Assembly (NCBI GenBank): GCA_012295275.1 | Contig: CM022669.1 | Span: forward strand, 810,573 to 874,572 | Length of the DNA stretch: 64,000 nt | Direction of reading: 5' to 3' | Source of the DNA: Chrysomallon squamiferum | Taxonomy: Eukaryota > Mollusca > Gastropoda > Neomphalida > Peltospiridae | Shown here: piece by piece, positions 12,751 through 35,461 of the stretch | How positions within the stretch are numbered: position 1 is the stretch's first letter | Layout: every line of letters starts with the position of its first letter | Made by a program: the position numbers and the translations under genes | The notes under the pieces: generated by a model | Told to the model about the DNA's origin: nothing | What the model saw: the letters and a program-made list of their open reading frames with translations, nothing else | Databases searched by the model: none

Positions 12751-12965
12751 GATAATAATAATAATAATAATAATAAAATCAACTAATAATAATAAAATGT
12801 ATAATAATAACAGTAAAATAAGAAAACTATTATATATAAAGTTTAATGGACAGATAAAAAGTTAAACTGACTGATTTTACATGTAGGTGTTAAAAAGAGA
12901 TTTAAGATATCAGACATTACTAAGTAACATTTACTGATTTAAGTGTCACGTGATTTGTTCACGTG

Positions 12966-12977
12966 TTTGTTTTACAG
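12966..12977 (+). other. 3' splice site before receptor start codon (copy 1)
   Basis: A pyrimidine-rich TTTGTTTTACAG ends at 12977, seven bases before the ATG at 12985. It argues that translation starts at 12985, not at the in-frame upstream ATG at 12943, which would be intronic. Confidence 0.7.
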
Positions 12978-12984
12978 TGTGAAG

Positions 12985-13920
12985 ATGAATTTCGGGAGCT
13001 CGGAGACAAACGGGACAAACAAACAGTTCCACATCGACGACGTCTCCAACACCGTTGTCAGCGTGTTTGAGATCGCCGTTATTCCTACAATCGTGTGTGG
13101 AAACATTCTCATCATTTCTGCGGTGTGCAGGTTCACGTGGCTGAGGTCCCCCAGTAACATCATGATAGCCTTTCTGGCTGGGGGCGACCTGATGATGGGG
13201 GGGTTGTACCTACCGCTGAAGCTGCTGTTCACGTACCGTGCGTACCTGTTTGACTCGCGTGCCTCGTGTCTCGCGTACATCTTCCTTTCGTACCTGTCTG
13301 TAAACAGCTGCATGTTCTTTCTGTCCACGCTCTCGCTTGAACGTTTCTACGCAGTCCAGTTCCCCTTCCACTACCACCGCGAGGCGACGCTCGCCCGAAG
13401 CGTGCTCGGCTGTCTGGGCGTGTTCGCACTCACGCTGGTTGTCACTCTGCCCATTCTCAGCGGAATAGACTCGTGGGCAGAGGGCAAACTCTGCTACAGC
13501 ACCAACATCCTGCCCGCCTACTACGTCTGGACTTTCACACTCGTCATTTTCGTCATGCAGCTGGCGGGTTTCTTCTCTTTTCTACGAGTGCTGTACGCCG
13601 AACTTCGTCAAAAACGACGTGGTACAAACCTGACAGAGAGCAGACGTCAAGACTCTGTGAAATCGACTCTGATGCTCGTGGTCTACGTCATCTCTCTCGT
13701 CTGCTGGATTCCAGAGTTCATCTACATCTTTGTCAGCGTGTTCAACCCGGAGCGCACGACCTTTCTAGGACTGAGGTCAGTGTCGCTGGTCGGCATCGGC
13801 AGTTCTGGCCTCAACTTCTTCGTGTACGGCTTGAAAAACAGCAAGTTCAAGAAAGCGTTCAAAGTGATGTGTGGCTGTCCACTGGATCGAAGTGTCCAGC
13901 CCGAAACCGTGACTGAGTAA
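12985..13920 (+). CDS. Orphan class A GPCR, tandem copy 1
   Basis: A 311-residue rhodopsin-family receptor of the plasma membrane, coded in one exon. It has an NGT glycosylation sequon at residues 9-11, GN in TM1 (39-40), LAGGD in TM2 (Asp68), E-R-F in place of D-R-Y (119-121), the signature QFPFHYH in intracellular loop 2, CWIP in TM6 and NFFVY in place of NPxxY in TM7. A short basic tail follows (KNSKFKKAF). The frame is open from an ATG at 12943, but a clear 3' splice site at 12977 makes 12985 the likely start. Its protein is identical to that of the copy at 15497; the coding sequences differ only at four synonymous third positions that I could find. It is a close paralog of the minus-strand receptor at 1013-1969. 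The ligand is unknown; a chemosensory or peptide receptor is possible but not shown. Confidence 0.95.
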   Translation: MNFGSSETNGTNKQFHIDDVSNTVVSVFEIAVIPTIVCGNILIISAVCRFTWLRSPSNIMIAFLAGGDLMMGGLYLPLKLLFTYRAYLFDSRASCLAYIFLSYLSVNSCMFFLSTLSLERFYAVQFPFHYHREATLARSVLGCLGVFALTLVVTLPILSGIDSWAEGKLCYSTNILPAYYVWTFTLVIFVMQLAGFFSFLRVLYAELRQKRRGTNLTESRRQDSVKSTLMLVVYVISLVCWIPEFIYIFVSVFNPERTTFLGLRSVSLVGIGSSGLNFFVYGLKNSKFKKAFKVMCGCPLDRSVQPETVTE

Positions 13921-15331: not shown

Positions 15332-15477
15332 GTAAATGAAAAACTATTATATATAAAGTTAGGACAGATAAAAGTTAAACTGACTGATTTACATGTAGGT
15401 GTTAAAAAGAGATTTAAGATATCAGACATTACTAAGTAACATTTACTGATTTAAGTGTCACGTGATTTGTTCACGTG

Positions 15478-15489
15478 TTTGTTTTACAG
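15478..15489 (+). other. 3' splice site before receptor start codon (copy 2)
   Basis: Same TTTGTTTTACAG as in copy 1, seven bases before the ATG at 15497. Confidence 0.7.
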
Positions 15490-15496
15490 TGTGAAG

Positions 15497-16432
15497 ATGA
15501 ATTTCGGGAGCTCGGAGACAAACGGGACAAACAAACAGTTCCACATCGACGACGTCTCCAACACCGTTGTCAGCGTGTTTGAGATCGCCGTTATTCCTAC
15601 AATCGTGTGTGGAAACATTCTCATCATTTCTGCGGTGTGCAGGTTCACGTGGCTGAGGTCCCCCAGTAACATCATGATAGCCTTTCTGGCTGGGGGCGAC
15701 CTGATGATGGGGGGGTTGTACCTACCGCTGAAGCTGCTGTTCACGTACCGTGCGTACCTGTTTGACTCGCGTGCCTCGTGTCTCGCCTACATCTTCCTTT
15801 CGTACCTGTCTGTAAACAGCTGCATGTTCTTTCTGTCCACGCTCTCGCTTGAACGTTTCTACGCAGTCCAGTTCCCCTTCCACTACCACCGCGAGGCGAC
15901 GCTCGCCCGAAGCGTGCTCGGCTGTCTGGGCGTGTTCGCACTCACGCTGGTTGTGACTCTGCCCATTCTCAGCGGAATAGACTCGTGGGCAGAGGGCAAA
16001 CTCTGCTACAGCACCAACATCCTGCCCGCCTACTACGTGTGGACTTTCACACTCGTCATCTTCGTCATGCAGCTGGCGGGTTTCTTCTCTTTTCTACGAG
16101 TGCTGTACGCCGAACTTCGTCAAAAACGACGTGGTACAAACCTGACAGAGAGCAGACGTCAAGACTCTGTGAAATCGACTCTGATGCTCGTGGTCTACGT
16201 CATCTCTCTCGTCTGCTGGATTCCAGAGTTCATCTACATCTTTGTCAGCGTGTTCAACCCGGAGCGCACGACCTTTCTAGGACTGAGGTCAGTGTCGCTG
16301 GTCGGCATCGGCAGTTCTGGCCTCAACTTCTTCGTGTACGGCTTGAAAAACAGCAAGTTCAAGAAAGCGTTCAAAGTGATGTGTGGCTGTCCACTGGATC
16401 GAAGTGTCCAGCCCGAAACCGTGACTGAGTAA
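15497..16432 (+). CDS. Orphan class A GPCR, tandem copy 2
   Basis: A 311-residue receptor whose deduced protein is identical to that of the gene at 12985-13920. All seven helices and the same unusual motifs (E-R-F after TM3, NFFVY in TM7) are present. The four coding differences I found are silent: a GCG/GCC Ala, two GTC/GTG Val and an ATT/ATC Ile codon. The 5' leader acceptor and a candidate AATAAA are kept, so this copy could be expressed, but it may lack its own promoter or leader exon because the duplication starts in the AAT tract just upstream. It could also be an assembly artefact, with two alleles placed in series. Confidence 0.93.
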   Translation: MNFGSSETNGTNKQFHIDDVSNTVVSVFEIAVIPTIVCGNILIISAVCRFTWLRSPSNIMIAFLAGGDLMMGGLYLPLKLLFTYRAYLFDSRASCLAYIFLSYLSVNSCMFFLSTLSLERFYAVQFPFHYHREATLARSVLGCLGVFALTLVVTLPILSGIDSWAEGKLCYSTNILPAYYVWTFTLVIFVMQLAGFFSFLRVLYAELRQKRRGTNLTESRRQDSVKSTLMLVVYVISLVCWIPEFIYIFVSVFNPERTTFLGLRSVSLVGIGSSGLNFFVYGLKNSKFKKAFKVMCGCPLDRSVQPETVTE

Positions 16433-27095: not shown

Positions 27096-28648
27096 AAATA
27101 AAGTTTAAGAAAAGTTATTGCAACATTATTACAAACAAAAATGAATAAGTTCGTGCAGTGTAACAGTTTAAAAGAATGGAGAACAAAAATAAAGAAATAA
27201 AAAGGATATTTATTTATTTATTTATTTATTTATATTCTCGTTGTTTCAGACTGGATTATATGCACTGTGCTAGTCGTCTGGCTCAAGAGAAGTTTTTGAT
27301 TCGAGATCCTGATTACTTCGACCTGGAAAGTAAATATTTTCTACTCTTCTCTACTAATCCGTCTCTGTACTAGTTTAACTAGGTAGTAAGATATACTCTT
27401 CTCTACTAATCCGTCTCTGTACTAGTTTAACTAGGTAGTAAGATCTACTCTTCTCTACTAATCCGTCTCTGTACTAGTTTAACTAGGTACTACGATCGGT
27501 TCTTGGTGCCCGCAGATTCTAGATTTGACAGCAGAGAAACAAGCGGCACATTGTCCGGGGCTCACAGAAAACTGAGTATGGAGTGGGTAGCTCACTGGCA
27601 CAGTGTCCGGGGCTGTGAGAAAACTGAGTATGGAGTGAGTAGCTCACTGACACAGTGTCCGGGACTATGAGTAACCTGAGTATGGAGTGGGTAGCTCACT
27701 GACTGAGTGTCCGGGGCTGTGAGTAAACTGAGTAGGGAGTGGGTAGCTCACTGTCACAGTGTCCGAGGCTGTGAGTAAATTGAGTACGGAGTGGGTAGCT
27801 CACTGACACAGTGTCCGGGGCTGTGAGAAATCTGAGTACGGAGTGGGTAGCTCACTGGCACAGTTTCCAGGGCTCCGGCACAGGGCTGTGAGTGGGTAAA
27901 TCTGACAGTGTCCAAGGCTGGGTGGGTAGCTCACTGGCACAGTATCCGGGGCTGTGAGTGGGTAGATCACTCGCACAGTGTCCGGGTGTGAGAAATCTGA
28001 GTACGGAGTGGGTAGCTCACTGGCACAGTGTCCGGGGCTGTGAGTGGGTAGATCACTCGCACAGTGTCCGGGTGTGAGAAATCTGAGTACGGAGTGGGTA
28101 GCTCACTGGCACAGTGTCCAGGGCTGTGAGTGGGTAGCTCACTGGCACAGTAACCGGGGCTGTGAGTGGGTAGATCACTCGCACAGTGTCCGGGGTGTGA
28201 GAAATCGCTGACTCGACAGTAAACGTTTCTCTTCCCGGTTTCAACACATCGATCCCCGCTGACAGCACACGCTCACCTGAGGGAATTCCGTTGAGGAAAA
28301 CTCCGACAATAAAACACGTAGCACGTCACGACTACTAAGAATAGACACGTCAGTTTGTGATGAATGGGAGTATGAGAGTCGTGAAGCCAATCCTTTACGC
28401 GTGCATTTCATACCTTACAAATCTACATTTACTGAAACATCGCAAGCTGAATGTTAGATATTAATAGTTTGTGTGTCGAATATGAATGCTATTTTATAAC
28501 CCTTCCACTACTGTTAAAGGAATTATATTTATTGTAATTTCTAGATCAGTAAAAAGTACAGGAGAATGTAATTATACTATTAATATTTGCTGGCCGTTAT
28601 CAAACAAGTATTTTTAAATTTTTATTTAATTTAATTTTTATTATTATT

Positions 28649-28724: not shown

Positions 28725-31700
28725 TTATTATTATTAATTTTTGTTTGATGTTATTTCTAGGTTAATAACTCTATGTGCTAATACAGATTTATTTTTGGAA
28801 CCTTAAATAAGTACACATTTTTTAAAAAAAATAAGTTATTTTGACATATTTCTTAATTAGAAATTTTTTGTTTGAATCTGAAATAGGTACATATTTATAA
28901 AAACAAAACAAAACAACAATATTATTTTAATATATTTAATTATTAGATTTATAATTATAATCTTAAGTAGGTACACGTTTATTTATAAAATAAATAAAAG
29001 TTATTTTGATATATTTCTTAATTGCATATTTATTGCTAGAATCTGAAATAGGTACGCATTTATATATAAAAAAAAAAAAAAAAATTATAACGAATATGAT
29101 TTGCTGATTACAGTTCACATTATATTTGATGACGCGTTTGAGTACGACAGCGAGGCTGATAGATTTGTACCCAACACCTTCGTCCTTCAGTTAGTCGAGG
29201 TCATGGAGGACGCCGCCAGGTGAGGTCACGTGATATCAGTACGCATGCGCGACAAGTTTAATAGTTCCCATTGAGATGTATCCGAGACATTAACATAGAA
29301 TTAAAAAAAAAAAAAAAAAAAAAAATTAGAATTAAAAATTTAATTGAAAGAAAAATTAAAAAACATATTTATGATTGATTAACATTTTGATTTGCAGTAT
29401 GTAGTTTTATCAACAGGTCTAATATTATAATGTTCATTTGCAGTAGTAGTATTATCAGCAGGCCTAACATTATAATGAAAGTAAAGTTTCTATTTTTTTC
29501 AATTTTTTTCTTTTTTTTTTGCTTATTGTTGCTTGTTTACTTTTTTTTTATTCATTTCTTTTCTCTCTCTTTTTTTCTTATTAATTTTTATCTGTTTATT
29601 TATTTTTGTTGTTTCTTTTTCTTCATTATAAAATTTCATCTTGTTTATTTAATTTAGTTATTAATCATATAAATCATTGCTTTTTAAAATTAAATTATTA
29701 TTATTATTATTATTACTTGTTAAACTTTAAAAAATATTTGTTTATGTTTGCAAATATTTTTAGATCTGTGGTTAAAGGACCTATAGTCATCCCGGCCCCT
29801 ACCAAAATCCCCACCCCTTATGGCGGGCGGCTAGTCTGGACAATGCCAGGACAAACCCAGCTGATCATTCACTGCAAAAACAAGAACAAAATCAGACACA
29901 GAAAAAGATGGTCACAGGTAAATAATATAACTATATATGTATGTGTGTGTATATATATTACTTACTGGGTTTTGTTGTTGTTGTTGTTATTTCAGTGTAT
30001 GTATGTGTATTACTTACTGGGTTTTGTTGTTGTTGTTGTTGTTGTTGTTTCAGTGTATGTATATGTATTACTTATTGGGTTTTATTGTTGTTGTTGTTGT
30101 TTCAGTGTATGTATGTATATGGGTTTTTATTGTTGTTGTTGTGGGTTTTTATTGTTGTTGTTGTTGTTTCAGTGTATGTACATGTATTACTTACTGAGTT
30201 TTATTGTTGTTGTTGTTGTTTCAGTGTATGTACATGTATTACTTACTGAGTTTTATTGTTGTTGTTGTTGTTTCAGTGTATGTATATGTATTGTATATGT
30301 ATTACTTACTGGGTTTTATTGTTGTTGTTGTTGTTTCAGTGTATGTACATGTATTACTTACTTTATTGAGTTTTGTTGTTGTTGTTGTTGTGTATGTACA
30401 TGTATTACTTACTGGGTTTTATTGTTGTTGTTGTTGCAGTGCATGTATATGTATTACTTACTGGGTTTTATTGTTGTTGTTGTTGCAGTGTATGTATATG
30501 TATTACTTACTGGGTTTTATTGTTGTTGTTGTTGTTGTTGTTTCAGTGTATGTATATGTATTACTTACTGGGTTTTATTGTTGTTGTTGTTGTTGTTGTT
30601 TCAGTGTATGTACATGTATTACTTACTGGGTTTTATTGTTGTTGTTGTTGTTGTTGTTTCAGTGTATGTATATGTATTACTTACTGGGTTTTATTGTTGT
30701 TGTTGTTGTTGTTTCAGTGTATGTACATGTATTACTTACTGGGTTTTATTTTGTTGTTGTTGTTGTTTCAGTGCATGTATATGTATTACTTACTGGGTTT
30801 TGTTGTTGTTGTTGTTATTTCAGTGTATGTACATGTATTACTTACTGGGTTTTATTGTTGTTGTTGTTGTTGTTGTTTCAGTGTATGTATATGTATTACT
30901 TACTGGGTTTTATTGTTGTTGTTGTTGTTATTTCAGTGTATGTATATGTATTACTTACTGGGTTTTGTTGTTGTTGTTGTTGTTGCAGTGTATGTTCATG
31001 TATTACTTACTGGGTTTTTATTGTTGTTGTTGTTGTTTCAGTGTATGTATATGTATTACTTACTGGGTTTTATTGTTGTTGTTGTTGTTTCAGTGTATGT
31101 ATATGTATTACTTACTGGGTTTTATTGTTGTTGTTGTTGTTTCAGTGTATGTATATGTATTACTTACTGGGTTTTATTGTTGTTGTTGTTGTTGTTGTTT
31201 CAGTGTATGTATATGTATTACTTACTGGGTTTTATTTTTGTTGTTGTTGTTGTTGTTTCAGTGTATGTACATGTATTACTTACTGGGTTTTATTGTTGTT
31301 GTTGTTGTTGTTTCAGTGTATGTATATGTATTACTTACTGGGTTTTATTGTTGTTGTTGTTGTTTCAGTGTATGTATATGTATTACTTACTGGGTTTTAT
31401 TGTTGTTGTTGTTGTTGTTTCAGTGTATGTATATGTATTACTTACTGGGTTTTTTATTGTTGTTGTTGTTGTTGTTGTTTCAGTGTATGTATATGTATTA
31501 CTTACTGGGTTTTATTGTTGTTGTTGTTGTTTTTTCAGTGTATGTACATGTATTACTTACTGGGTTTTCGACTACTGGGTGGACGTGGTTCTAGCAGCAC
31601 GACAACAGACACAGACGGCGACTCTGCAGACACCCCAGACGCCTACGACAACACCGTGAGAAACAGGAAGAAACGAAAGAGCAGGAAGGGGAAGAAACAG

Positions 31701-32014
31701 AAATCTGTTCCACTGAAAACCTTGCTGATGAGAATGCCGCCTGAGCAGTACGAGCAGGTAACAAAACAGAGTCTTAACCGATCCCCAAATTATTCATTGA
31801 TCTTTTACTTCTATTTACTTTTGTTCAAATTACCACAGTATCAAAATATCGAATGTTTCAAAAGAAATTCTTACCTTTTGCATGCTTGTTGTCTAGTCTC
31901 CATCAAAAGTTATCCTATTAATGACGTAAATTAATTGATTACATCATTAGTGCAGATACACAGCTGGTAAATATAAGGGAAGCTGTTTTTCGGAACCTTT
32001 CGACTATTTTCGGA

Positions 32015-32075
<61 letters not shown>

Positions 32076-32571
32076 TGTACTTTCAAATCATTAAATTATT
32101 ATAAATTCTTCCCTGAGAGTTTGTACCACTTCAGTATTTGAATAAGTATTTTCTATTCCGAATCCTTGATACCTTTTACGATTACAACAGTTGTGTCAGA
32201 AATAATGTTATATCACAAAAGAGTAATTAACAGCAGTACTGTAATTACTGAGTTAGACTAAAGAGTTATTTATTATTACTCAGGTTTATCTCACTCAGTT
32301 TATCAAAACGTTTTTGTTTTCAGATTTTGGAGAAAGCCGAGCGTTGTTTCATTCTCTGTCTCGATGGTGACGTCGACTTCCGGCCCGAGTCTGTGAAGCT
32401 GCTGATGGACAGGATGAAGAAAAACAAGAAAGTTGGAGCCGTGTGTGGCAGAATTCATCCAGTTGGTTCAGGTTACCATTGTTTATATATTTGTTTTTAT
32501 TTATTTTTTCTTATTATTATTTTTTTTCTTATTGTTTTATTGTTTCGTTCTTTTATAAAATTGCATACGTG

Positions 32572-32690: not shown

Positions 32691-35461
32691 TGAAATATTG
32701 CAGGTCCCATGGTCTGGTATCAGCAGTTTGAGTACGCTATTGGTCACTGGTTGCAAAAGGCCGCGGAACACGTGTTCGGTTGTGTTCTCTGCTGTCCAGG
32801 TTGCTTCAGTCTGTTCAGAGGTTCTGCGCTGATGGATGACAATGTACTGAAAATGTACACGACAAAACCAACAGAAGCCAGACATTACATCCAGTTTGAG
32901 CAAGGTTAGTTATTAGTGATTATCTCCCCTGCATTGTTCAGTAGGTCGAAAGAAACTGAAGAGTTTTGTAAAGCTGTTAAAAAGAAATTCGGAAATTTTG
33001 CAGCAACCAAGTTAGTGATAGCTCATTTGTGTGAACAGCATCATTCACAGATTTATTCTAAAACGAAAAAGTAGGAACCATAAACAAACAAATAAATAAA
33101 TAAATAAATATATAAAGATATTATATTTGTACAAGTGACATATCAGATATTTTATTGTACAAGTTATATAAGATATTGTATATGTACAAGTGATTTATAT
33201 CAAACATTGTATTTGTACAGGTGTGTTATATCAGATATTGTATTTGTACAGGTGTGTTACAACAGATATAGTATTTGTACAGGTGTATTATATCAGATAT
33301 AGTATTTGTACATATGAGATATAAGACTAGTGAGTGATATAAGATGTTGTATATGTACTAGTGAATGATATAAGATGTTGTATATGTACTAGTGATATAA
33401 GATGTTGTATATGTACTAGTGAGTGATATAAGATGTTGTATATGTACTAGTGAATGATATAAGATGTTGTATATGTACTAGTGATATAAAATGTTGTACA
33501 TGTACTAGAGAATGATATAAAATGTTGTACATGTACTAGAGAATGATATAAAATGTTGTACATGTACTAGTGAATGATACAAGACGTTGTACTATTCAGG
33601 TGAAGATCGGTGGCTGTGTACTCTGCTGCTACAACAAGGTCACAGAATTGATTACTGCGCCGGAGCAGACGCTTTGACCTTTGCTCCTGAAACGTTCAAC
33701 GAATTTTTCAACCAACGTCGGCGCTGGTCGCCGTCAACTTTGGCCAACCTGATGGACCTGCTGGAGTCGTGGAGGGAGACTGTGCGCATCAACGACAACA
33801 TCAGCAGACCGTACATCTTCTACCAGTTCATCCTGATCGCGTCCACCGTGTTGGCGCCCGCCACCGTCATCCTGATGATCACCGGCTCCTTCCACTCAGT
33901 CCTCGGCCTCAGCGTCTGGTGGTCCTTCCTCCTCTCCATGACCCCAGTCGTCTTCTACGTCGTCATCTGCCTCACTCAGAGCAACAACGTGCAGATTACC
34001 GTGGCCGCTGTGCTCACGGCTTTGTACACCGTCGTCATGATGATAGCAACGGTGGGAACCATCATCAGCATCGCCACTGAAAGCTTCAACAGCCCGAATG
34101 TCGTGTTTCTCTGTGGTCTGATTGTCGTGTTTCTCATCGCCGGCTTGTTGCACCCGCAGGAGTTTTTCTGTCTCGTGTACGGAGCGCTGTATTTTCTTGT
34201 CGTTCCGACGACGTTTATCCTGTTAACGGTTTACTATCTGTGCAACCTCAACAACGTGTCGTGGGGCACTCGAGAGATTCCCAAGAAGCTGACACCACAG
34301 GAACAAGAAGCAGCTGACAGAGAGGCCGAGAGAAAAAAGAAAAACAAAAGCAAGAGTATCTTCAGTCTGTGGGGCCTGGTCGCCCTGGTGCAGGAGCTGC
34401 GAGACATCACGAGAAGTTTGATGGGTCTGAAGAATGACATGGTGACCACTGTCCAGCAGCAGCAGATGGAAGGTACAGAAGTGACCCTCGACATGAGGAG
34501 TGATTGCGTGCACAAGACACTGAGTTCGAGAGATTCTGTCATATCGAGGACTCCAGTCGGATGGGAACCTAATCCCGATCTGCCTTTCTGGCTGAATGTG
34601 GAAGAGCTGGGGAATGGGGCAGTGGAACTGATACACGATGAGGAGCTGGAGTTTTGGAACTTCACAATTAAGAAATATCTGCTGCCTCTGGACGAGGACA
34701 AGCAGCACAAGGAGCAGGTGAAGAACGACCTGATGCTGCTGAGAAACAACGTCGTCTTCATCTACTTCCTCCTCAACTTCCTCTGGTGCGTCATTACATT
34801 ACAGCTGCAAGGACTGGAAAGTGAACTGAAAAACTTTTACATCATCAGAAAGTACGAGCCGTTGTCGCTGATTTTCCTCTCAGTATTTGCGATTGTCCTC
34901 GTACTTCAGTTTATCAGCATGCTCGTACACAGGTGGGGAACTTTCCTCCACTTAATGTCGAGCACCAGAGTGGACTGGTTCAAAAAGTCTCACAGCGAGC
35001 AGGAATTTGCAAAGTTTGTGTTAAACGAGACACGACGTCTGCAGCGACTGGAGCCAGATCTAGAACCTGACCCCGACTACGGCGACGAAGAAGATGACGC
35101 CAATACGTCCACTTTCTCTGACCCGGAAATCGGAGAGGAGATGACGTCAGTGAGAGATAATAGTAGCTACTACGACACTCTGAGGAGTTTCAGAAGTGAC
35201 ACGTTGAAAAGGTTAAGAAATCACTCACAGAGAGGAGGAGTGCCCATATTACAAACAATATTTGAACAGAACTTGAAAACCATGCAGAATTACCACAGCA
35301 AGTGGAACAGTGACTCTCTGCGCTACAAAGGCTCCAGTCGCATGCAGCGAGCCGACAGCAAACACAAAGGCGCAGTGAAAGAACAGGAAATGCGACAAAG
35401 ACTTTACACACAGACAATGGAGAGAGACAAAGATCATCTGAAACGAATCCGAGTGATGTGA
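21352..35461 (+). CDS. CHS: Chitin synthase, 12 coding exons (complete)
   Basis: A processive family 2 glycosyltransferase of the plasma membrane that polymerises N-acetylglucosamine from UDP-GlcNAc into chitin and extrudes it. Exons: 21352-21393, 22156-22691, 23946-24123, 24719-24856, 25168-26300, 27250-27329, 29114-29219, 29764-29917, 31539-31757, 32324-32471, 32704-32904, 33600-35461. All introns are GT-AG and all phases match; the sum is 4797 nt, giving 1598 residues, close to the usual 1500-1600 for animal enzymes without a motor domain. Order: hydrophilic N-terminus, membrane cluster from about residue 220, CATMWHE (656-662), GGRLVW (758-763), LDGDVDF (875-881), EDRW (980-983), QRRRW (1017-1021), five or so membrane helices, SWGTRE (1199-1204), coiled-coil-like segment (about 1236-1270), two more helices and an acidic C-tail. 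Unlike some mollusc chitin synthases it has no myosin head. Intron 8 is a 1.6-kb array of decoy acceptors. Confidence 0.93.
22156..22691 (+). CDS. CHS: Chitin synthase exon 2
   Basis: Residues 15-193, a Ser/Asn-rich cytosolic region ending in an acidic stretch (EIEEDEDEDD) just before Trp193, whose codon is split. Acceptor CTTCAG, donor GTACTT. The donor lies at the very edge of a TTTA microsatellite. Confidence 0.85.
22692..22965. repeat. TTTA/CTTA tetranucleotide repeat in intron 2
   Basis: About 270 bp of TTTA and CTTA units starting right at the intron 2 donor. The rest of the intron (to 23945) is AT-rich with GAT/AAT runs near 23098-23138 and TATC at 23768-23814. Confidence 0.95.
23946..24123 (+). 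CDS. CHS: Chitin synthase exon 3
   Basis: Residues 193-252: the RPYDVFQ motif after the split Trp, then the first membrane helix (VLYVFLTVVVLGS). Acceptor ATTGCAG, donor GTGCGT, ending in phase 0. Confidence 0.9.
24130..24718. repeat. Intron 3: degenerate AGT/AGC triplets
   Basis: AGT, AGC and GTA triplets fill 24150-24450, and an AAT run lies at 24633-24673. The intron ends in TTATTTCAG at 24718. Confidence 0.85.
24719..24856 (+). CDS. CHS: Chitin synthase exon 4
   Basis: Residues 253-298, with a hydrophobic helix (LVLLLFCICAPIGWNWLL) and a GGKEWPS turn. Phase 0 at both ends; strong GTAAGT donor. Confidence 0.9.
24857..25167. other. Chitin synthase intron 4
   Basis: 311 bp with AGT/GTA triplets at 24975-25030; acceptor TGTTTTCAG. 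Confidence 0.85.
25168..26300 (+). CDS. CHS: Chitin synthase exon 5
   Basis: Residues 299-676, the largest N-terminal exon. It holds several membrane helices and, near its end, the family motif YVCATMWHE (654-662) that opens the cytosolic catalytic region. It ends within the Arg676 codon; donor GTAAAA. Confidence 0.95.
26455..27092. repeat. Compound microsatellite in intron 5
   Basis: TATC, TGTC and GTAT tetranucleotide blocks occur in a repeated order (three related blocks at about 26455-26620, 26750-26830 and 26865-26960), with a pure GTAT run at 26630-26728, then CT (27020-27064) and TA (27065-27092). Open frames over it are artefacts. Confidence 0.95.
27250..27329 (+). CDS. CHS: Chitin synthase exon 6
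   Basis: Residues 676-703, including RDPDYFDLE, which matches the family's conserved stretch before the first acidic loop of the catalytic domain. Starts with one base and ends with one base of split codons; donor GTAAAT. Confidence 0.88.
27342..27497. repeat. 52-bp tandem repeat at the intron 6 donor
   Basis: Three copies start at 27342, 27394 and 27446, beginning only 12 bp after the splice donor. Each contains CTACTAATCCGTCTCTGTAC. Confidence 0.95.
27559..28200. repeat. GC-rich minisatellite in intron 6, about 53-bp units
   Basis: About a dozen imperfect units contain CACAGTGTCCGGGGCTGTGAG and GAGTGGGTAGCTCACT in variable order, with shortened units from 27860 on. It is much more GC-rich than the surrounding DNA. 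Confidence 0.92.
28201..29113. other. Rest of chitin synthase intron 6
   Basis: Unique DNA, then GTT and TTC triplet runs at 28650-28722 and poly(A) at 29069-29084. Several AGGTAC-containing quasi-repeats lie at 28800-29060. Acceptor GATTACAG at 29113. Confidence 0.7.
29114..29219 (+). CDS. CHS: Chitin synthase exon 7
   Basis: Residues 703-738, containing HIIFDDAFEYD, the conserved acidic motif of animal chitin synthases, and VEVMEDAA. Donor GTGAGG; the Arg738 codon is split. Confidence 0.92.
29220..29763. other. Chitin synthase intron 7
   Basis: AT-rich: poly(A) near 29303-29324 and T-rich DNA at 29490-29640. Ends in ATTTTTAG. Confidence 0.7.
29764..29917 (+). CDS. CHS: Chitin synthase exon 8
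   Basis: Residues 738-789, with the conserved PYGGRLVW (756-763) and RKRWSQ (784-789). Ends in phase 0 at a GTAAAT donor that opens the decoy-acceptor intron. Confidence 0.93.
29918..31538 (+). repeat. Intron 8: array of about 30 copies of its own 3' splice junction
   Basis: From about 29950 to the intron end the sequence is a tandem repeat with units of 37+3n nt (commonly 52, 55 or 58). Each unit has ten codons reading CMYMYYLLGF, one A, a (TTG)n tract and TTTCAG or GCAG. The ten codons are the start of exon 9. CTTAC inside them fits the yUnAy branch-point pattern and lies about 25-35 nt before the next AG, so each unit resembles a complete acceptor. Units near 30103, 30275 and 30338 are rearranged. 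The first unit follows the donor closely. All three forward frames are open throughout, which yields long spurious ORFs rich in Cys, Val or Leu. Confidence 0.96.
31539..31757 (+). CDS. CHS: Chitin synthase exon 9
   Basis: Residues 790-862. It opens with CMYMYYLLGF (family norm VMYMYYLLG), then has a Gly/Ser/Thr/Asp-rich stretch and a strongly basic one (RKKRKSRKGKKQK) before MPPEQYEQ. This linker precedes the UDP-binding LDGD motif and is longer and more basic than in the insect enzymes I recall. Phase 0 at both ends; acceptor TTTTTTCAG, the last of the array; donor GTAACA. Confidence 0.92.
31758..32323. other. Chitin synthase intron 9
   Basis: AT-rich, with an AAT microsatellite at 32015-32075; acceptor TTGTTTTCAG. 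Confidence 0.8.
32324..32471 (+). CDS. CHS: Chitin synthase exon 10
   Basis: Residues 863-912: catalytic LDGDVDF (875-881), KKNKKVGAVCGRIHPVGS. The Asp residues of LDGD are expected to bind UDP-sugar and metal. Donor GTTACC; the Gly912 codon is split. Confidence 0.95.
32472..32703. other. Chitin synthase intron 10
   Basis: 232 bp of T-rich and TTTA/TA microsatellite DNA (32580-32688) directly before the acceptor TATTGCAG. Confidence 0.85.
32704..32904 (+). CDS. CHS: Chitin synthase exon 11
   Basis: Residues 912-979: MVWYQQFEYAIGHWLQK, CCPGCFSLFRG and LMDDNVL, all conserved in animal chitin synthases and part of the acceptor-binding half of the catalytic domain. Donor GTTAGT in the codon of Gly979. 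Confidence 0.96.
33100..33590. repeat. 31-bp minisatellite at the 3' end of intron 11
   Basis: Older units (33110-33320) contain TATCAGATATTGTATTTGTAC. Homogeneous units (33325-33590) contain ATGTTGTATATGTACTAG and TGAATGATATAAG. The last unit runs into the real acceptor, and the segment CTAG-TGAATGAT of the unit resembles the junction CAG-GTGAAGAT. Confidence 0.93.
33600..35461 (+). CDS. CHS: Chitin synthase exon 12 (3' terminal)
   Basis: Residues 979-1598 and the stop. It holds EDRWLCTLLLQQG (980-992), QRRRW (1017-1021), a run of about five helices (from residue 1050 on), SWGTREIPKK (1199-1208), the charged segment EAADREAERKKKNKSKS, a coiled-coil-like stretch ending in VQQQQ, two further helices around 1350-1440 and an acidic, Ser-rich cytosolic tail. 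The exon is long and uninterrupted, and its GC content is well above that of the introns. Confidence 0.97.

Follow-up and report, generated by a model that had tools for sequence, protein, structure and literature searches.

The question raised by this locus is how an intron came to consist almost entirely of copies of its own 3′ splice junction, and how the exon downstream could still be joined to the preceding one. The locus lies within the window, i.e. the whole stretch of 64,000 nucleotides analysed, and the gene concerned encodes a chitin synthase, of a family described in parts of PMC7142155 and PMC9156901 as making chitin in the shell-secreting mantle and in the iron-mineralised scales. 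Intron 8 of this gene, in which a single exon is preceded by 27 acceptors that are nearly identical, is a natural test of 3′ splice site choice, in which exon definition can be set against proximity, and the sister genes, some very similar and with 2 to ~30 additional units, provide a natural dose series. If duplication across splice boundaries were common, it would be a source of intron growth and of decoy splice sites that gene annotation could miss.

The gene was rebuilt from exon 5 (partial) to exon 12 on the basis of splice sites and conserved protein. The features relevant to the argument, in window coordinates and with a slash marking splice boundaries, are:

27250..27329, + strand, chitin synthase exon 6 of the rebuilt gene model
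29114..29219, + strand, chitin synthase exon 7 of the rebuilt gene model
29764..29917, + strand, chitin synthase exon 8, ending in the conserved peptide ...KRWSQ, with intron 8 in phase 0
29918..29923, + strand, true donor of intron 8, CAG/GTAAAT, matrix score 11.5
29918..31538, + strand, intron 8, 1,621 nt
29943..31568, + strand, tandem array, the unit being a (TTG)n tract plus TTTCAG plus the first ~30 nt of exon 9
31484..31538, + strand, last array unit, its exon copy containing CTTAC with the A at 31504
31539..31757, + strand, chitin synthase exon 9 of the rebuilt gene model, 219 nt, beginning CMYMYYLLGFRLLGG
32324..32471, + strand, chitin synthase exon 10, with the LDGD motif
32704..32904, + strand, chitin synthase exon 11 of the rebuilt gene model
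33600..35461, + strand, chitin synthase exon 12 and stop, with a match to Pfam Chitin_synth_2

Exons 8 and 9 are joined in frame as ...KRWSQ/CMYMYYLLGFRLLGG..., and this junction peptide is identical in Gigantopelta aegis P0001, the closest among the proteins listed (87% over the query). Tandem Repeats Finder gave one array of ~29.5 copies of a 52- or 58-nt unit at 29943-31568. It makes up ~98% of intron 8, of which only the first ~25 nt fall outside, crosses the 31538/31539 boundary and enters exon 9 by 30 nt. The common unit is approximately TGTATGTAYATGTATTACTTACTGGGTTTT-A(TTG)nTTTCAG, its first 30 nt corresponding to the start of exon 9 and the remainder to the TTG tract and the acceptor; when split by script, the units were mostly 49-58 nt long, with lengths equal to 1 mod 3. 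The script found 28 CAG sites, i.e. 27 upstream copies (decoys) and the true acceptor at 31538, together with the exon-derived core in 29 copies, of which one lies in exon 9 itself; at one unit junction, within 30340-30439, the AG has been lost. When the intron was shuffled 200 times, no shuffle equalled the copy match of the real sequence (p = 0.005, the floor of the test). In the window gene, such copies occur at one of seven acceptors and at none of seven donors, and a 104-nt unit dimer gave 25 matches in the genome, 21 in the window array and four partial ones elsewhere. The sequence-only reading of this stretch had described intron 8 as a tandem array of the acceptor plus the start of exon 9, different from a minisatellite confined to an intron; both points were borne out, the former by Tandem Repeats Finder and by script, the latter by the extension of the array 30 nt into exon 9. 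Its figure of about 30 copies is corrected to 27 decoys plus the real junction.

Concerning the signals available for splice site choice, the acceptors were scored with a weight matrix derived from 38 different acceptors found in genes of the chitin synthase family. The decoys scored 8.25-8.67 in 25 cases out of 27 and 11.3-11.4 in the other two, compared to 8.90 for the true site and 3.3-17.7 for the references, and the true acceptor ranks third among 31 AGs. A run of six T before CAG occurs only at the true acceptor among the 28 CAG sites; it was considered as the deciding signal and rejected, as it gains only +0.23 in the matrix over most decoys (8.90 versus 8.67). RNA hairpins over four units gave a weak result (z = -1.8) and were rejected as well. 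The site sequence thus appears to offer the spliceosome no clear reason to prefer the last acceptor, and the idea that each unit is a sequence-complete acceptor holds, the decoys being indistinguishable from the true site by matrix. The CTTAC in the unit, which we take to match the branch-point motif, had been proposed as a branch site and is indeed a good candidate. The CTTAC in the last of the decoy copies of exon 9, whose A is 34 nt upstream of the true AG, would then be the probable branch site for the real acceptor. On the other hand, the hexamer GTATGT, said to be donor-like, did not survive scoring: it reached -2.16 versus 4.3-13.3 for 17 real donors, and it is weak because the bases on its exon side are wrong. 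The window units read AG/TGTATG, with a donor-likeness of -2.5, and contain no AGGT that could act as both donor and acceptor.

The reading that we favour, with a probability of roughly 60%, is that the junction was duplicated recurrently, that the decoys are tolerated and that the last copy is used. A segment of ~52-58 nt straddling the 3′ splice junction, made up of the last ~22-28 nt of the intron and the first ~30 nt of exon 9, would have been duplicated in tandem repeatedly, with the consequent growth of intron 8. Each duplication would deposit in the intron a working-looking acceptor with a stub of exon 9, and only the last copy would run on into exon 9. The spliceosome would take the last acceptor since no other is followed directly by a whole, purine-rich exon that has a good donor; a block of 90% A/G lies at +120 to +150 of exon 9. 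We infer this last-site choice from the conserved protein and the anatomy of the exon; duplication as the cause and tolerance of the decoys are likewise inferred. The upstream copies would decay unless re-homogenised, and a likely side effect would be that the branch point of the real acceptor now falls within a decoy copy of exon 9. An intron that is a string of its own junctions, together with similar strings in sister genes, suggests that introns here can grow by duplicating their own splice junctions.

The use of decoys would have consequences for the reading frame. Seven of the 27 are in frame with exon 9, and six of these stay open, while the other 20 shift the frame and reach a stop codon before exon 9 is complete. 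If intron 8 were retained, translation would continue across the array as far as a stop at 31592. The array is open for hundreds of codons in all three forward frames (29585-31594, 30198-31934 and 30370-31659, one of them continuing from exon 8); these long frames exist because the units rarely contain stops, and they are not taken as genes. The frameshifts are what could be expected if the decoys were a regulatory device sending transcripts to non-coding forms and so tuning chitin synthase output. The good preservation of the sites in two arrays points the same way, with only one unit junction lacking its AG in the window and 27 of 27 decoy AGs kept in the sister gene C11:0.36M. This explanation is taken up again below with the older arrays.

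A genome search with a query spanning exon 6 through the beginning of exon 12 yielded 89 matches, which make up a large family of chitin synthases. All 16 genes scanned have the acceptor in front of the same codon of (V/C/I)MY, and in 14 of them the donor follows RWSQ, exon 8 of the remaining two being outside the stretch. Intron 8 is therefore at a family-wide position and does not qualify as a new intron in the sense of intron gain. Copies on C9, C7 and C13 have no intron at this position, those on C9 and C7 (L053 and L054) reading RWSQVMYMNY uninterrupted; all three were left out of the counts, as were C11:0.435M and C11:0.514M for exon 9, which is outside the stretch. Copies of each junction (6 intron plus 18 exon nucleotides, with AG kept) were searched in the upstream intron, up to 2,500 nt, against shuffles that were first-order Markov samples rather than exact permutations. 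The exon-9 junction was found copied upstream in nine of 16 genes at shuffle p<0.01, and 11 of 16 reached 16/24 identities, while the acceptors of exons 8, 10, 11 and 12 showed copies in 0/16, 0/9, 0/15 and 0/14 genes, i.e. 0/54. With an earlier threshold of the same test, the outcome was 8/14 for exon 9 versus 0/55 for the other acceptors. Fisher's test by gene gave 1.8e-7, a value to be read with the non-independence of the genes in mind, as there are close kin among them (five C11 copies, a C8 pair and the C4:13.74/13.77M pair); by lineage, grouped by hand, it was 5/10 versus 0/31 (p = 3e-4). C5:10.88M and C8:4.89M, at p = 0.025 and 0.030, were not counted as positive; a decayed series of copies is visible by eye in C5:10.88M. 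The chitin synthase donors showed copies at 0/16, 0/6 and 1/12, at the 16/24 level and without p-values. A duplicated exon-9 peptide was also sought in database proteins: among the 120 homologs listed of 2,131, eight had two loose motif matches, and in two of these, P0056 and P0101, the second is a full copy of the peptide, but distant in the protein and not array-like.

It could be argued that an ordinary minisatellite overlaps the exon edge by chance, and that the sister copies are simple TATG-like sequence. The region is certainly rich in micro- and minisatellites (219 overlapping Tandem Repeats Finder rows in the window) and the start of exon 9 is AT-rich (0.67). However, the exon-9 query reached 16/24 in only three of 53 other introns of chitin synthase genes, once each and never above 16; on the reverse strand of intron 8 it did so in two genes out of 16, and in one case this was an inverted copy, in C11:0.53M. 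A pattern for junctions with a Val start matched 53 times in 404.6 Mb, each time at a chitin synthase locus, and the reversed control gave no match; the Cys-start copies of the window do not fit this pattern. Besides, the decoys carry up to ~30 nt of coding sequence, which in the window is always that of the gene itself. An origin by chance or from simple sequence was ruled out by the shuffles, the other introns and the reversed-pattern control, and we regard the minisatellite explanation as quite improbable. Slippage of ATGTAT-like coding hexamers (MYMY) was tried as the cause of the hot spot and discarded: the self-match of exon 9 starts is 0.45 versus 0.35-0.41 for other exon starts, and simple slippage does not explain the hot spot because this excess is so slight.

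A different account of how the arrays are dealt with is that the decoys are used and then respliced. In Val-start (GTN) paralogs, AG/GT would rebuild a donor after each use, allowing stepwise removal or a corrected choice. The exon-9 acceptors read AG/GT in 14 of 16 genes, the rebuilt donors of Val-start paralogs score 5.6-9.2, and those of the C11 units (CAG/GTGATG, 7.9; CAG/GTAATG, 9.2) are inside the range of real donors, 4.3-13.3. Donor-likeness is also highest at exon 9 among five acceptor positions (median 7.9, the next being 5.0), and dual-specific sites in tandem arrays are reported, in part of PMC10809524, for human UBC. Against this, arrays exist without a rebuilt donor, both in the window gene (TGT, -2.5), where such a ratchet fails, and in C5:3.04M (ATT, -1.9), and the exon 12 acceptor reads AG/GT in seven of 14 genes, yet there are no copies there. 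As a general explanation, resplicing is therefore doubtful, and we keep to recurrent duplication with use of the last copy.

The arrays differ from gene to gene. The unit length is 52-58 nt in the window gene; it is 63-65 nt in the C11 genes and 21 nt in C4:13.53M, and C5:3.04M has irregular units. The decoys match best the start of their own exon in the window (27/27, TGT), in C5:3.04M (3/3, ATT) and in C11:0.36M (26/27, GTG); this match fails or is mixed in C5:10.88M (0/5), C4:13.53M (1/6 uniquely), C4:13.79M (2/2 tied) and C11:0.53M (7/18 uniquely). Among the very similar C11 genes, three have two extra copies and C11:0.36M has 27; C11:0.53M has 31 anchors including the real junction. There seem to be several independent or re-homogenised arrays, because neither the unit length nor the spacer is the same from gene to gene; that arrays arose several times, or went on being homogenised, once the genes had separated is likely and is favoured by the clear own-exon cases. 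The gene tree requires three changes and is compatible with a single ancestral array; C4:13.506M, C11:15.168M, C11:0.435M and C11:0.514M were skipped in it, and its rows C13 and C5:19.25M are unreliable (stops). Polar growth from the exon was considered and rejected, since divergence, as ungapped counts with indel units included, falls toward the exon in the window (Spearman 0.50, p = 0.008) while two C11 arrays gave p = 0.73 and 0.13.

Some side observations were made on intron 8 of the C11 genes. That of C11:0.36M holds, at L047:682-4369, a second array, in which a 32-nt unit is repeated ~114 times and which lies upstream of the acceptor one; L056:1-2919 is similar to this second array. Intron 8 would be of ~22.5 kb between C11:514390 and 537619, if exon 8 and exon 10 there belong to one gene, and a lone exon 8 match lies at C11:437663.

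The state of the decoys in these arrays bears on the regulatory explanation. The AGs of C11:0.36M are all intact at a pairwise divergence of 0.11, which is compatible with youth and also with some constraint. The oldest array, that of C11:0.53M, has a mean pairwise divergence of 0.32 in the exon parts and keeps 18 of its 30 decoy AGs, and conservation over 26 units is 0.75 in the AG columns versus 0.83 in the exon part and 0.84 in the spacer. Purifying selection on decoy AGs is thus unsupported there, and with 12 of 30 AGs lost in this oldest array nothing indicates that the decoys are maintained as a sink for splicing; the suggestion in the sequence-only reading of a splice-site sink, if meant as one under selection, was not supported. 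The swings in copy number, from 2 to ~30 among very similar C11 genes, also speak against regulation by the decoys, as do comparable junction copies at donors and acceptors of unrelated myosin genes, described next. Altogether, a regulatory role seems improbable.

As a control outside the family, 30 myosin-head exons of the same genome were analysed, the best acceptor near the start of each match being chosen by matrix; the exon ends were set by matrix rather than annotation, and the sample is a small one, of a single family, with one near-duplicate among the 30 rows. Two of 30 acceptors had junction copies at p<0.01 (L067 and L082). In L082 (C7) the acceptor and ~39 nt of exon are repeated once, 126 nt upstream, and in L067:1100-1504 (C1) the intron ends in a series of related units, of which some read TTTCAG/AGGTTGAG while others no longer have the AG. 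Two of 29 donors were also positive at p<0.01 (L059 and L086), a third, L082, being at p = 0.02. In L059:1758 (C2) the exon end TATCTTGTACAG/GTAAAT is copied in the following intron, with seven copies of at least 16/24, the best being 24/24, and in L086:1647 (C13) part of the exon end and the donor are copied in the intron as five decayed copies of at least 16/24. These myosin copies weaken a gene-specific function and strengthen a general mutational origin. It seems that introns of this genome grow by junction-spanning duplication more widely than in one gene family, with chitin synthase exon 9 as a hot spot. Triplets of TTTCAG spaced 40-70 nt number 6,630 genome-wide versus 1,188 in the reversed control, a count that cannot give prevalence because many of the matches listed, from C1 only, look like coding-type repeats; large TTTCAG arrays at C1:5295615-5300832 and 13075515-13076807, with units of ~75 and ~57 nt, are probably of this kind.

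A tentative extension, which we regard as possible, is that introns of many genes grow through duplication seeded at junctions, giving arrays of complete decoy acceptors or donors, and that this has happened again and again at chitin synthase exon 9, in some five sister lineages. Arrays with a GT start would then be self-correcting, as a used decoy would rebuild a donor, whereas the window gene would rely on exon definition alone among 28 near-equal sites.

An assembly artefact inflating the number of units, or producing the entire array, has some grounds in the Nanopore/Illumina assembly of an animal with 1.38% heterozygosity (PMC7142155, in part). In the window itself, two GPCR-like genes with 100% identical proteins lie 2.5 kb apart (12943-13917 and 15455-16429), the result of a recent tandem duplication or of an unmerged haplotype. 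However, the exon parts of the window units differ from each other by a mean of 4.6% (26 units), and assembly error is a very unlikely source of the array because sister genes hold arrays of other units at the same junction.

In a literature search that covered few subscription papers, no report was found of acceptor-junction arrays of one gene recurring across a family. Introns are reported to have originated from tandem arrays by Zhuo et al. in 2007. The window array is not a cluster of mutually exclusive exons either, as each unit contains ~30 of the 219 nt of exon 9 and lacks a credible donor. Among the known systems, intron gain through tandem duplication of an exonic AG/GY, as outlined in parts of PMC2891723 and PMC4974935, is similar in that a duplication carrying splice motifs alters gene structure, but it makes a new intron, while the snail case is the growth of an intron at a family-wide position. 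In primate internal tandem repeats, repeat numbers varying between paralogs likewise change the exon/intron structure, although, in the part of PMC2812944 considered, they are not linked to a single homologous junction that is affected repeatedly within a family.

The ratchet points of recursive splicing in flies are described, in part of PMC8605326, as numbering in the hundreds, being well conserved and occurring for the most part in long introns. They share AG/GT composites with the units of several sister genes, recurring every 63-65 nt in C11; the juxtaposed acceptor and donor are absent from the window gene and present as sequence in the units of C11, C4:13.79M and C5:10.88M. By comparison with those fly sites, the snail arrays are dense and decaying.

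In humans, 792 introns have been counted in 262 tandem repeats, with dual-specific AGGT sites in, e.g., UBC and VCX3A (PMC10809524, in part). In UBC the repeat is a coding unit and one site is both donor and acceptor, and an array of this type would be expected to have both intron ends in the repeat and an intron length that is a multiple of the unit; the window gene is non-repetitive, only its acceptor is arrayed, no AG/GT is formed and the donor at 29918 lies outside the array, which starts at 29943. Dual AGGT sites of the UBC type occur in this family, judging by sequence, only in the Val-start paralogs. With these differences, the UBC-type arrays are the nearest kin of the present one, as in them too, like in intron 8, the splice site is part of a tandem repeat and multiplies along with it.
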